From positions 1 through 64,000 of the forward strand of contig JAHHHL010000007.1 in NCBI GenBank assembly GCA_019359375.1: a stretch of 64,000 nucleotides of DNA. Reading direction: 5' to 3'. A program made the position numbers and the translations under genes. Positions 30,663 to 33,401 of this stretch are shown one piece after another. The stretch is from Lyngbya sp. HA4199-MV5. Lineage in GTDB: Bacteria > Cyanobacteriota > Cyanobacteriia > Leptolyngbyales > Leptolyngbyaceae. A model generated the notes under the pieces. The model ran no database searches. It had not been told where the DNA came from and saw nothing but the letters and a program-made list of their open reading frames with translations. Each line of letters starts with the position of its first letter. Position 1 is the stretch's first letter.

Positions 30663-31034
30663 CTAAAGTTTAGATTTCGGAACTGCGTGGAAATGAGGTG
30701 AAAGCATCGCTCGCACAGGACGACCATTAATCAGATGGCGCTTTACCACTTCTGGCACTTCTTCTGGTCGCACCCCGCAGTACCAGATGTTGTCTGGCAA
30801 GATGCGAACCATGGGTCCGTTGCCGCACTGTCCCATACAGCCCGCTTTGATGACCGACCATCCTGGCACGGGTCTTGCTTGAAACGCCGCCAGCACCGCG
30901 ATCGCTCCCTGTTTGAGACAGGTGCGATTTTGGCAGATGAGAATCTGCTGCATGGCTGGCTCAGCAAACTCTGGAGATACATTCACGGGCGATCGGCTTG
31001 AACGTAAGAATCGGATTGAAAGGAGAGACTGCAT
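30663..31034 (-). CDS. Thioredoxin-like (2Fe-2S) ferredoxin
   Basis: A small electron-transfer protein with a thioredoxin-fold [2Fe-2S] domain. The cluster ligands are ICQNRTCLKQGA (CX4C... type) and KAGCMGQCGNGPMV. The first family-like residues are QQILICQNRTC, so the real start is probably near MQQILIC (30953) or a GTG slightly upstream; the longest frame is listed. The C-terminus VRPEEVPEVVKRHLINGRPV matches NuoE-like ferredoxins. Confidence 0.88.
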   Translation of the reverse strand: MQSLLSIRFLRSSRSPVNVSPEFAEPAMQQILICQNRTCLKQGAIAVLAAFQARPVPGWSVIKAGCMGQCGNGPMVRILPDNIWYCGVRPEEVPEVVKRHLINGRPVRAMLSPHFHAVPKSKL

Positions 31035-31185
31035 CGCTTTTGCCTCACAGTATCCAGTCTAAAAGCTTTTTACGTAACAAAAATCGACTTTTGTAAAGTC
31101 ACTGGACTGTAAGCAATGAGCCAGAATAGGGGATGGTAAAGCTTAGCTGGCGCATTGCGACCATCGCGCCGAGGAGATCAGGAGC

Positions 31186-31914
31186 ATGGCAGAGAACACC
31201 AACCTCTTTTGGTTTGGTTTTTTGATTGAGTTTGTTTTTATCTTGGCGATCGTCAAGCTGGTAGACTTAGGCTCCAATAGCAATGACAAGCTTGGTGCCG
31301 AACGTCATCGCTTGAGGCGAGAGTACGAACGGATGAAGCAGGCGCTAGAGCAAAAGGCAGAACTAGCGCAAGAAAACCTGCGTCTGCAAGCCTTGCAGCA
31401 GCGTACCGAGCAATTGACTCAAGCACGCCCTGATCTTCAACCTGATGCACAGCCACTGGAATTCTTAACGAGTGAGCATCAGCAACGTCAGCAAGCTTTA
31501 CAGCAAGAAAACGATCGCCTCACACAGAAATGCGCCCAGCTTGAGCAGGCATTACAGCAGCAAGAGACAACGCTTACGGCAACGTTCCGCCGCTCACTCT
31601 TTAAGCAGCTTCAAACGCTATTCACGCACCACCCCAGCATTAGTAAAATCATTGAGGCGAAACCAGACTTGCCTGCCAAAAGTTTAACGCCCATGTTTGT
31701 TCCCCTGGAGAATTTGATTCAGAGCTGGGGCTACCACCAAATTGGTACAGCGTGGGAACAAGTGGCTTACGATCCAACCCTGCATCAACCCGATGCTCCC
31801 GATATTGCACCCGGTGAATTGGTCTACGTTCGCTTTGTGGGCTATCGGGATGGGGATACTATTCTCTGCCCTGCCAAAGTGAGCCGCACATTAACCAAGG
31901 CGATCGGTGCCTAA
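31186..31914 (+). CDS. Membrane-anchored coiled-coil protein with GrpE-like C-terminal domain
   Basis: An N-terminal hydrophobic segment (LFWFGFLIEFVFILAIVKLV) is followed by a long coiled coil rich in Gln and Leu (about residues 45-130) and a C-terminal domain. That domain resembles the GrpE beta-wing: WGYHQIGTAWEQVAYDPTLH, PGELVYVRFVGYRDGDTI, LCPAKVSRT (compare FDPxxHEA and GYxxxDRVLRPAKV of GrpE). GrpE is the nucleotide-exchange factor of DnaK. Soluble GrpE has no membrane segment, so this may be a tethered variant. The assignment is by motif only. Confidence 0.6.
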   Translation: MAENTNLFWFGFLIEFVFILAIVKLVDLGSNSNDKLGAERHRLRREYERMKQALEQKAELAQENLRLQALQQRTEQLTQARPDLQPDAQPLEFLTSEHQQRQQALQQENDRLTQKCAQLEQALQQQETTLTATFRRSLFKQLQTLFTHHPSISKIIEAKPDLPAKSLTPMFVPLENLIQSWGYHQIGTAWEQVAYDPTLHQPDAPDIAPGELVYVRFVGYRDGDTILCPAKVSRTLTKAIGA

Positions 31915-31919
31915 GAGCT

Positions 31920-32015
31920 TGAGAAGTAATTAGTTGTTGGTTGTTGGTTGTTAGACTCGTCGCTCGATCGGTACGGCTCACGAAAAACTAACAACTAAAA
32001 ACTAACAACTACTAA
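31920..32015. repeat. TTAGTTGTTGGTTGTTGG / AACTAACAACT inverted repeat tract
   Basis: TAATTAGTTGTTGGTTGTTG and the nearby AAAACTAACAACTAAAAAC run are inverted copies of the same word set around GACTCGTCGCTCGATCGG. A close relative lies at 56450-56630, which shares the middle segment. Confidence 0.7.
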
Positions 32016-32394
32016 AGGATCGCTCCAGCAATGCAGCCAAGTCGGTTTTACTGATGCGCCCGGTCACAACCTCTTGCACCAAGGTATACGCTTGCTCATC
32101 GGTCAGCAGCAGTCGATAACCATTGACGCGCAGGAAGGTATCCATCACAGCAAAGGCGGTGCGCTTGTTGCCGTCTAGAAAGGGGTGATTTTTCGCTAGA
32201 TGGTAAAGGTAAGCGGCGGCTTGTTCATAAATTGTTGCATGAAGAAACTCACCGCCAAAGGTTGCTTGCGGTTGCGCTAACGCTGATTCCAGTAGACCTT
32301 CATCTCTGATACCAGCAGTGCCGCCATATTTCTTAAGCTGTCTGGTGTGGATGCTTAGCGTTTCAACCACCGAAAGAAATTTAGGAGTTAGCAA
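32002..32394 (-). CDS. Doc/Fic-family toxin
   Basis: Death-on-curing-type toxins are Fic-fold enzymes that modify elongation factor Tu or other targets. The Fic motif HPFLDGNKRTAFAVM (HPFxxGNKR) is intact, with the family-typical YGGTAGIRDEGLLESALAQP near the N-terminus. Length 130 is normal. The start overlaps the end of the upstream antitoxin gene by 14 bases, the usual arrangement of a toxin-antitoxin operon. Confidence 0.9.
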   Translation of the reverse strand: MLTPKFLSVVETLSIHTRQLKKYGGTAGIRDEGLLESALAQPQATFGGEFLHATIYEQAAAYLYHLAKNHPFLDGNKRTAFAVMDTFLRVNGYRLLLTDEQAYTLVQEVVTGRISKTDLAALLERSFSSC

Positions 32395-32575
32395 GACGAC
32401 GGTACACCTCTTCTCGTTCTCGCTCCGAATCTAAATAGGCTTGCCACACTTCAGGACGAACGGCGGGTGGATTGTCTGCTGGTGCTTCTAGGGAATGGAT
32501 AAACGTCAGCACATCCGAGAGCTTTGGTTCGGGTAGCTGGTCGAGGGCTTGAATGATCTGTTCTTTGGTGGTCAT
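32381..32575 (-). CDS. Antitoxin of the Doc-type pair (DUF2281-like)
   Basis: A 64-residue acidic protein directly upstream of the Doc toxin and overlapping it. TTKEQIIQALDQLPEPKLSDVLTFIHSLE resembles the N-terminus of DUF2281-type antitoxins, and the C-terminus (VWQAYLDSEREREEVYRRLA) is helical and charged as expected for a toxin-binding tail. No clear DNA-binding domain is seen; assignment rests on the operon. Confidence 0.75.
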   Translation of the reverse strand: MTTKEQIIQALDQLPEPKLSDVLTFIHSLEAPADNPPAVRPEVWQAYLDSEREREEVYRRLANS

Positions 32576-32669: not shown

Positions 32670-33401
32670 TCAGAGAACGGCTTCTAGCGGCACATCCAGC
32701 ACGGGAAACTGTGCCCAATTGGCAGCATCAAAGTGCCACCATTCTGTCTGCAAGGGTGCGAACCCACGCTTTACCATTGCCTCTTTCAAGCGCTGACGAT
32801 TTCGTTTGGCGATCGGGCTAGCGCCGTCATAGTCTATATCAGCTTGCTCGGTAAAGTCATCGAACGCTGTGGGCATGGTGAGTTCCTTGCCCAGCTGATC
32901 GACCAGCGTGACATCGACCGCAGACCCACGATTATGCCGTGAACCAGTGGCGGGATTAGCCACGAAGCGATTGTCTGGAACCAGCTTCCACATTTGTTTC
33001 TGTACAGACAGCGGACGGTAGCAATCATAGACCTTTAGCCCCAGCCCTTCAGCTTCAAGATCTGACTGCACTTGCGAAAGCTGTTCTGCGGCGATCGCCC
33101 TCAGCAAGCAGCGCGACTGTTTGTAGAGTGTCCGACGCATGAAATTATTGGTGGTCGCATAGCGCATATCGAGGTGAATCCGGGTATTGATCCCGTGCAG
33201 ATCCACAAGCTGTGACTGATTGGCTCGTTTCCGGGGCGATGCGGTAAAAGTTGCCGTTGGTCGAGGCGATGTTACGGTGGGGCTGGATGTAGCGCTTGAG
33301 TCAGCAGCACCTGGTGAATAGCTCTGACAGGCGATCGCGAGCGATAGAAGCGCGATCGCGGTAAATTTAAGCCAGTAGTGAATTTTGTTTAGAGGTTTCA
33401 C
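32670..33401 (-). CDS. VanX-type D-alanyl-D-alanine dipeptidase lipoprotein (M15D)
   Basis: The enzyme cleaves D-Ala-D-Ala dipeptide, probably for cell-wall recycling. An N-terminal signal ends with the lipobox LAIAC at about residue 25, so it is likely an envelope lipoprotein. The zinc motifs SRHNRGSAVDVTL (SxHxxGxAxD) and EWWHFD (ExxH) are intact. A Thr/Ser/Pro linker lies between lipobox and domain. Relatives in other bacteria give vancomycin resistance; here no van cluster is near. Confidence 0.92.
   Translation of the reverse strand: MKPLNKIHYWLKFTAIALLSLAIACQSYSPGAADSSATSSPTVTSPRPTATFTASPRKRANQSQLVDLHGINTRIHLDMRYATTNNFMRRTLYKQSRCLLRAIAAEQLSQVQSDLEAEGLGLKVYDCYRPLSVQKQMWKLVPDNRFVANPATGSRHNRGSAVDVTLVDQLGKELTMPTAFDDFTEQADIDYDGASPIAKRNRQRLKEAMVKRGFAPLQTEWWHFDAANWAQFPVLDVPLEAVL

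Follow-up and report, generated by a model that had tools for sequence, protein, structure and literature searches.

The window analysed here, a stretch of 64,000 nucleotides from Lyngbya sp. HA4199-MV5, contains on its forward strand an open reading frame for a protein of 242 amino acids. A sequence-only reading had proposed a membrane-tethered GrpE-like protein at this site, and the frame is present as claimed, including the quoted motif YDPTLH..PGELVYV..GYRDGDTILCPAKV. The C-terminal end of the protein carries YDPTLHQPDAPDIAPGELVYVRFVGYRDGDTILCPAKVSRTL. The following features were assigned:

31186-31914, forward strand: gene for the membrane-anchored GrpE-like protein, 242 aa, ATG start, read from the open reading frame
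31171-31184, forward strand: Shine-Dalgarno-like sequences GAGGAG (31171-31176) and AGGAG (31180-31184), read directly, function presumed
31207-31263, forward strand: predicted N-terminal membrane helix, residues 8-26 (FWFGFLIEFVFILAIVKLV), Kyte-Doolittle value 2.35
31291-31629, forward strand: helical stalk or coiled coil, approximately residues 36-148, from predicted helices and coiled-coil profile matches
31633-31734, forward strand: short-helix region, residues 150-183, from the family alignment to GrpE chains
31735-31893, forward strand: beta-wing-like domain, residues 184-236, with YDPxxHQPD and VRFVGYRxGDxILxPAKVSRTL, from strands, conserved columns and HMMs

A structure model of low confidence places helices at residues 5-80 and 92-148 in the stalk and at 152-158 and 174-180 in the short-helix region, and strands at 184-186, 191-194, 200-202, 212-216, 218-222 and 230-233 in the wing-like domain. 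Residues 150-183 may be the counterpart of those GrpE helices that face Hsp70. On the reverse strand, the gene is accompanied by genes for a ferredoxin-like protein of the thioredoxin fold (30663-31034; PF01257, 24.1 bits at a cut-off of 24.8), a small Fic/Doc protein (32002-32575; PF02661, 77.3 bits) and a D-Ala-D-Ala dipeptidase-like protein (32670-33401; PF01427, 125.6 bits). A gene of 64 codons with a weak match to DUF2281 (E 0.054) overlaps the Fic/Doc gene upstream, a layout resembling that of toxin-antitoxin modules. Deduction of a function from the neighbours (GCV_T-like, ferredoxin-like, Fic and dipeptidase) was rejected, as the surroundings at the related loci L011 and L013 differ.

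The proposed order of a membrane helix, a coiled coil and a GrpE-related domain was borne out by the hydrophobicity of residues 8-26 (Kyte-Doolittle value 2.35 at a window length of 19) and by profile comparisons. All six distinct proteins of the window clade exceed a value of 2.2, which reflects hydrophobicity only, while 1.6 was attained neither by any of 18 proteins of the helix-turn-helix (HTH) branch of the family nor by the first 150 residues of any of 14 canonical cyanobacterial GrpEs. Within 15 residues on each side of the helix, the net charge is -1. Since several Arg and Lys residues follow further downstream of the helix and no positive charge precedes it, the GrpE part is probably cytoplasmic (N-out, C-in).

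Homologues from Stenomitos rutilans, Tildeniella nuda, Leptolyngbya sp. ES-bin-22 and Stenomitos frigidus are 78-88% identical to the window protein over the full length, a more distant protein from FACHB-471 is 52% identical. A genome of the same genus (G135) has a sequence identical to the S. rutilans locus, and the source organism is probably Stenomitos-like. Comparison of the window gene with its four clade homologues gave dN/dS ratios of 0.07-0.08, and all ten pairs of window-type genes ranged from 0.06 to 0.14, synonymous sites being saturated in part. Conservation is highest in the C-terminal part (0.04-0.09 in the nine computable pairs of ten). These ratios reveal purifying selection on the gene, and because the subclade moreover groups at a support of 100/99, the gene is not a chance frame.

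Taken as a single sequence, the window protein resembles GrpE weakly. The Pfam model PF01025 gave 13.9 bits, at a gathering cut-off of 25.8, and matched residues 97-141, which belong solely to the coiled coil; the C-terminal part alone gave 17.1 bits, again below the cut-off. Other coiled-coil families score like PF01025, and one NCBIfam GrpE model extends to the wing (residues 174-233, E 0.078). Such scores would also be expected of a membrane coiled-coil protein whose likeness to GrpE is a chance effect of the coil, but longer GrpE alignments of the family, a search with the beta part and the linkage to Hsp70 described below make this explanation highly improbable. It is through its relatives that the resemblance becomes solid. 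A profile of eight family sequences (A3) retrieved GrpE as the top three PDB matches (3a6m, 1dkg and 4ani among them; E 3.8e-5, 9.5e-4 and 1.9e-3). The profile of the HTH branch detected 4ani (7.6e-4) and 3a6m (1.9e-3), mixed with HTH proteins. A profile of 36 sequences of the window's own branch (A7) found 1dkg as its sole GrpE, at E 0.0098, a weaker result that counts against the reading. On the level of individual sequences, 20 of the 36 domain sequences of the branch matched Pfam GrpE at E≤0.1, down to 9e-7, and the family ranking second was matched by 4 of 36; the matching part was located solely for the window sequence, where it is the coil. Two members of the branch match PF01025 over the whole domain, though below the cut-off (G073:C16, 6-162, 19.6 bits; G017:C73, 9-161, 22.2 bits). 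Alignment of the branch with the 14 canonical cyanobacterial GrpEs by hhalign yielded an E-value of 3.7e-6, a probability of 73 and 18% identity over 142 columns. The same comparison with the full-length HTH branch produced a one-column alignment, a negative result that is ascribed to a failed run because the HTH protein L016 passes PF01025. Finally, HMMs restricted to the beta part of either branch were run against 6,229 open reading frames, and the best match outside the family was in both cases the canonical GrpE L134 (E 0.0016 and 4.8e-5). That the beta part alone still puts canonical GrpE first among matches outside the family speaks against a coiled-coil effect.

The same genome harbors a canonical GrpE on contig C55, which scores 145.6 bits to PF01025 and adjoins a dnaK gene. 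Three GrpE-like paralogues exist in this genome; the one on C5, an HTH protein, lies above the PF01025 cut-off (32.6-32.7 bits, model positions 26-162), and the C11 copy is 46% identical to the window protein over residues 61-237. The wing of canonical GrpE carries the motif DPxxHxA. While the canonical GrpE of this genome has DPSLHEA, the window protein has DPTLHQP, i.e. HxA is replaced by HQP. The label of a canonical GrpE was therefore rejected, in view of the missing motif, the score below the Pfam cut-off and the canonical GrpE on C55. As judged by the comparisons within the family, the window protein is a divergent sister of GrpE, homologous over stalk and beta-wing. Further GrpE paralogues with approximately 43-98 bits to PF01025 (G046:C16, G088:C2, G057:C1, G005:C1 and others), one of them in a frame of 1067 aa, were observed in some cyanobacteria, at sites without GrpE-like profile matches among those listed.

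The expectation of a GrpE-like C-terminal fold was not contradicted by the predicted structure, although the model, which was built from six sequences, is of low confidence (pLDDT 56, pTM 0.26). The ten best PDB matches obtained by Foldseek were all GrpE chains, with probabilities of 0.66-0.98 and E-values of 3.7e-3 to 4.4e-2, none below 0.001; the next match had a probability of 0.04. With VIA, seven GrpE entries reached Z scores of 4.9-7.3 and the next chain 3.1, values below 8 being middling according to the tool. A domain-only model (pLDDT 63) ranked GrpEL1 first at E 0.11 and did not improve the fold match. For a model of this quality, GrpE appears to be the only solved fold above noise, and other folds could still fit. 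R216, the arginine of VRFVGY, is invariant in 36 aligned rows of the branch and is a candidate contact to the nucleotide-binding domain of Hsp70.

The family is widespread in the class. The A3 profile detected it in 199 of 242 class genomes at E≤0.001, the A7 branch profile in 198 of 242 at E≤1e-10; some genomes possess two or three GrpE-like genes, and the small genomes of family f2 among those listed have none. A tree of 65 domain sequences, taken from 68 loci after removal of two duplicates (L055 = L010, L056 = L014) and without L110, whose frame was lost in gene calling, splits with a support of 100/94 into an HTH branch of 19 rows and the window branch of 46 rows. The labels TM and HTH had been set by the C-terminal motif and not by the N-terminus, and L113, labelled TM, falls into the HTH branch. 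L016, the only HTH-branch protein run against Pfam, contains a Cro/C1-type HTH domain (PF13443) ahead of the GrpE-like part, and the other proteins of this branch align with it in that region. A hydrophobicity of 1.6 is reached in 36 of the 46 window-branch rows, by L091 through its HTH. Instead of a membrane helix, an HTH-like N-terminus occurs in L087 and L091, the first rows of the branch in the midpoint-rooted tree, and in f5 genomes. PF13443 places L106 just above and L091, L094 and L109 just below its cut-off; in L086, L087 and L093 the HTH was recognized by eye. Judging from this distribution, an ancestor with an HTH and a later swap to a membrane anchor is likely as the simplest reading, and it would be a clear case of a co-chaperone relocated within the cell. 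One protein (L077:5188-6033) seems by eye to combine a TM helix with an HTH-like stretch and might be an intermediate of the anchor change. In seven of the 18 HTH loci the GrpE-like gene lies just behind an F6 gene, whose product we take from its sequence to be Dps-like, or else near an F5 gene (eight loci in total; the HTH loci concerned are L016, L095, L096, L097, L099, L111 and L114).

A search for conserved neighbours, which the sequence-only reading had suggested, was successful for the relatives but not for the window gene itself, beside which no Hsp70 is encoded. Directly downstream and on the same strand, 35 of 47 window-branch genes (profile rows of at least 154 bits, the intermediate rows G104 and G094 left out) are followed by an Hsp70 gene, 3-325 bp behind the domain match. 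Among the 32 distinct linked loci that were read, ten show a 4-bp overlap between the Hsp70 start and the stop of the gene before it. The 12 branch genes not counted as linked include G101 (L091), which is cut by a contig end with the start of the Hsp70 gene still present. The paired Hsp70 comprises approximately 525 aa and retains the ATPase signatures and the beta domain. Its representative on C11 aligns to DnaK residues 5-489 with 23-24% identity and ends soon after, which leaves no room for a lid. All Hsp70-family frames in the 68 loci have 511-551 aa or are cut by a contig end, and none is a full DnaK.

Class-wide, a branch gene was found in 44 genomes and the C11-type Hsp70 in 63; 40 genomes have both, four only the GrpE-like gene, 23 only the Hsp70 and 175 neither. 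The 23 genomes possessing the Hsp70 without a branch gene count against a pairing as exchange factor and chaperone. Another lidless Hsp70, the C90 type (E≤1e-100), tracks the HTH branch, with 177 genomes containing both, nine only the HTH-branch gene, 12 only the C90 type and 44 neither, as obtained by subtraction from the genome tables (G094 and G104 left out). Eight f5 genomes lack both the HTH-branch gene and the C90-type Hsp70. When any GrpE-like gene and any short Hsp70 were considered, both were present in 191 genomes, only the Hsp70 in ten, only the GrpE-like gene in seven and neither in 34. These co-occurrence counts and the Fisher tests on them ignore relatedness and are descriptive only. 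In the HTH branch, none of the 18 loci has an Hsp70 beside the GrpE-like gene. A phylum-wide profile search in 146 genomes gave three matches outside the class, each adjacent to a short Hsp70 on the same strand and with differing gene order; measured from stop to stop, the Hsp70 frames have 555-607 aa. Since all three are adjacent to such a gene, the pair may predate the class Cyanobacteriia; transfer would be another explanation.

Some further observations were made at these loci. L140-L147 (genera g37, g101 and g120 of family f23) contain a relative of the paired Hsp70 and no adjacent GrpE-like gene, apart from one match at noise level in L145 (E 0.072); in L142 and L143 a membrane protein of 581 aa with a sensor-like start is encoded directly upstream of it. 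Near the Hsp70 pair there are also genes for proteins with an N-terminal double motif like DAVLGGxxPPTGAVLGGLEGVKQRL, which are possible clients or adaptors; WD40, LRV/HEAT or pentapeptide repeats follow the motif in those checked. Twenty such genes occur in ten of 33 linked loci (L015:1205-5120, corresponding to C11:33.7-47 kb of the own genome, L058, L059, L066, L068, L072, L073, L075, L079 and L087) and none in 16 unlinked loci, and the 18 HTH loci yielded one match that looks unrelated. In the own genome, one double-motif N-terminus has eight matches (E≤2e-8), of which C11 carries seven. Some pairs are also accompanied by an AAA ATPase, presumably Ycf46-like, and a DUF1257-type protein (L075:3367-5436, L079:6925-9019, L087:1002-4492, L110:6862-8875, L187:2-1072). 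The assignment was made by Pfam (PF00004, PF06868) for the L075 pair and by BLAST family for the others, the AAA gene of L187, outside the class, having been recognized by eye.

The window gene is an orphan within this Hsp70-linked branch. Its clade consists of six rows (support 100/99) with two sister rows (96/86) inside the branch (100/94), and neither the window gene nor its seven closest relatives in the tree have an Hsp70 gene next to them. In L057 the gene is followed by the contig end; the only C11-type Hsp70 of that genome is located elsewhere. All six genomes with a window-type gene possess a second branch gene, a C11-type Hsp70, an HTH-branch gene and a C90-type Hsp70. In five of them, the second branch gene and the Hsp70 are adjacent; in ES-bin-22 they are on separate contigs. 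The window genome has its intact pair on contig C11. Hence, the orphan is seen as an additional membrane unit that most likely serves the paired C11 Hsp70 in trans, and another Hsp70 partner is possible. In the sister genomes G115 and G183, which contain the orphan membrane GrpE-like gene, the C11-type Hsp70 is absent, so that a different partner is needed there.

With moderate confidence, we regard the window protein as an orphan membrane-tethered putative nucleotide exchange factor, from a divergent and largely cyanobacterial branch of the GrpE type, that would act in trans on a lidless Hsp70. A single TM helix would hold a long dimerising stalk and the beta-wing at the cytoplasmic face of the thylakoid or plasma membrane. 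The wing would force apart the nucleotide-binding domain of the short Hsp70, which keeps its substrate-binding beta domain, whereupon ADP release would reset the chaperone and concentrate it at the membrane. The partner would most likely be the Hsp70 that forms a gene pair with the sister paralogue on C11. According to the available text of studies on GrpE complexes, the wing wedges between lobes IB and IIB of the nucleotide-binding domain and the stalk reaches the substrate domain (PMC11685456, PMC10803776). As the Hsp70 considered here has no lid, the contact of wing and lid described there for GrpEL1 would be without counterpart (PMC11685456, PMC10803776).

The sequence-only reading had named DnaK as the chaperone that could be recruited. 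This point was not upheld, since gene order and co-occurrence tie the relatives to the short lidless Hsp70, which is probably the partner of the window protein as well. That the protein is instead a membrane exchange factor for a canonical DnaK, most likely the thylakoid-binding DnaK3, is considered unlikely. The genome does encode three full DnaKs, one of them in a frame of 860 aa with a long C-terminus, DnaK3 of Synechocystis is reported in the consulted part of one paper to bind thylakoids (PMC7281324), and in G115 and G183 an Hsp70 other than the C11 type must serve. On the other hand, the Hsp70-family frames of the 68 loci include no full DnaK, a dnaK gene on C55 is adjoined by the canonical GrpE, and the canonical HxA motif is lost. 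A second alternative, which appears quite improbable, is a scaffold that has lost exchange activity and pairs with or caps GrpE-like paralogues, or docks Hsp70 at the membrane. The divergent wing with HQP in place of HxA, the three GrpE-like paralogues that could mix in dimers, and the presence of an intact pair in the same genome as the orphan would all be compatible with it, but the strongest conservation is found in the C-terminal part, which fits a retained contact to Hsp70.

Beyond the trans-acting exchange factor proposed for the window, cyanobacteria and a few other members of the phylum might possess a second, anchored chaperone system, an idea that is put forward tentatively and with more doubt than conviction. 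It would consist of the lidless Hsp70 and a GrpE-like protein whose stalk is fixed to DNA by an XRE-type HTH or to the membrane by a TM helix, the anchor having been swapped; the repeat proteins with the double V/I-L-G-G motif at their head would be possible clients, and the window gene would provide a second membrane address for the same Hsp70. The GrpE-like protein and the short lidless Hsp70 form a small two-gene system. As a study of Nostoc punctiforme counted a single GrpE (PMC9239167), whereas at least one additional GrpE-like gene exists in 198 of the 242 genomes of the class, some of the chaperone system of cyanobacteria may have been overlooked. Recruitment of bacterial Hsp70 to membranes is usually credited to J-proteins. 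An exchange factor, if fixed to the membrane, would set where the Hsp70 cycle ends, not where it starts.

The statement that no characterised example of this architecture is known is consistent with the literature covered. Neither a membrane-anchored GrpE nor a GrpE-like/lidless-Hsp70 pair was described in the searched portions of the open-licence literature, and a 2025 review of GrpE-like factors does not mention the terms transmembrane, membrane-anchored or cyanobacteri. Canonical GrpE (PF01025; 1DKG, 4ANI, 3A6M, 8GB3) has the order of stalk helix, short helices and beta-wing that is predicted here and shares the motifs DPxxH and GYxxGxxxLxxAxV. The window protein differs from it by an identity of 18% in the profile alignment, by the N-terminal TM helix, by HQP and by a short Hsp70 as its likely partner. 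The only membrane-associated exchange factor encountered is Snl1 of yeast, which is anchored by an N-terminal helix and, by the part of the report available, was the only one known in 2014 (PMC3962485). Snl1, however, contains a BAG domain, i.e. it is an exchange factor of another kind, and resides in the eukaryotic ER. As to the gene pair, the second GrpE of Myxococcus xanthus, GrpS (MXAN_6672), is encoded directly upstream of the second Hsp70, MxDnaK2, according to excerpts of two studies (PMC11019930, PMC10313047). It is likened to the present pair by description; these excerpts speak of a GrpE homologue and of a DnaK as its partner, and mention neither a membrane helix nor an HTH. In Nostoc punctiforme, an Hsp70 team of DnaK1, DnaJ3 and GrpE is tied to the type IV pilus, and the sections consulted of this 2022 mBio study count a single GrpE (PMC9239167). 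That system differs from the one described here in using this single counted GrpE and DnaK1. GAP1-N2 GTPase conflict systems, as far as described in the passages available, contain GrpE beside Hsp70, in some cases with a second Hsp70 that lacks the peptide-binding part (PMC7159879). Those systems are described as mainly from actinobacteria and firmicutes and are associated with GTPases, whereas the Hsp70 paired with the GrpE-like proteins keeps its beta domain.
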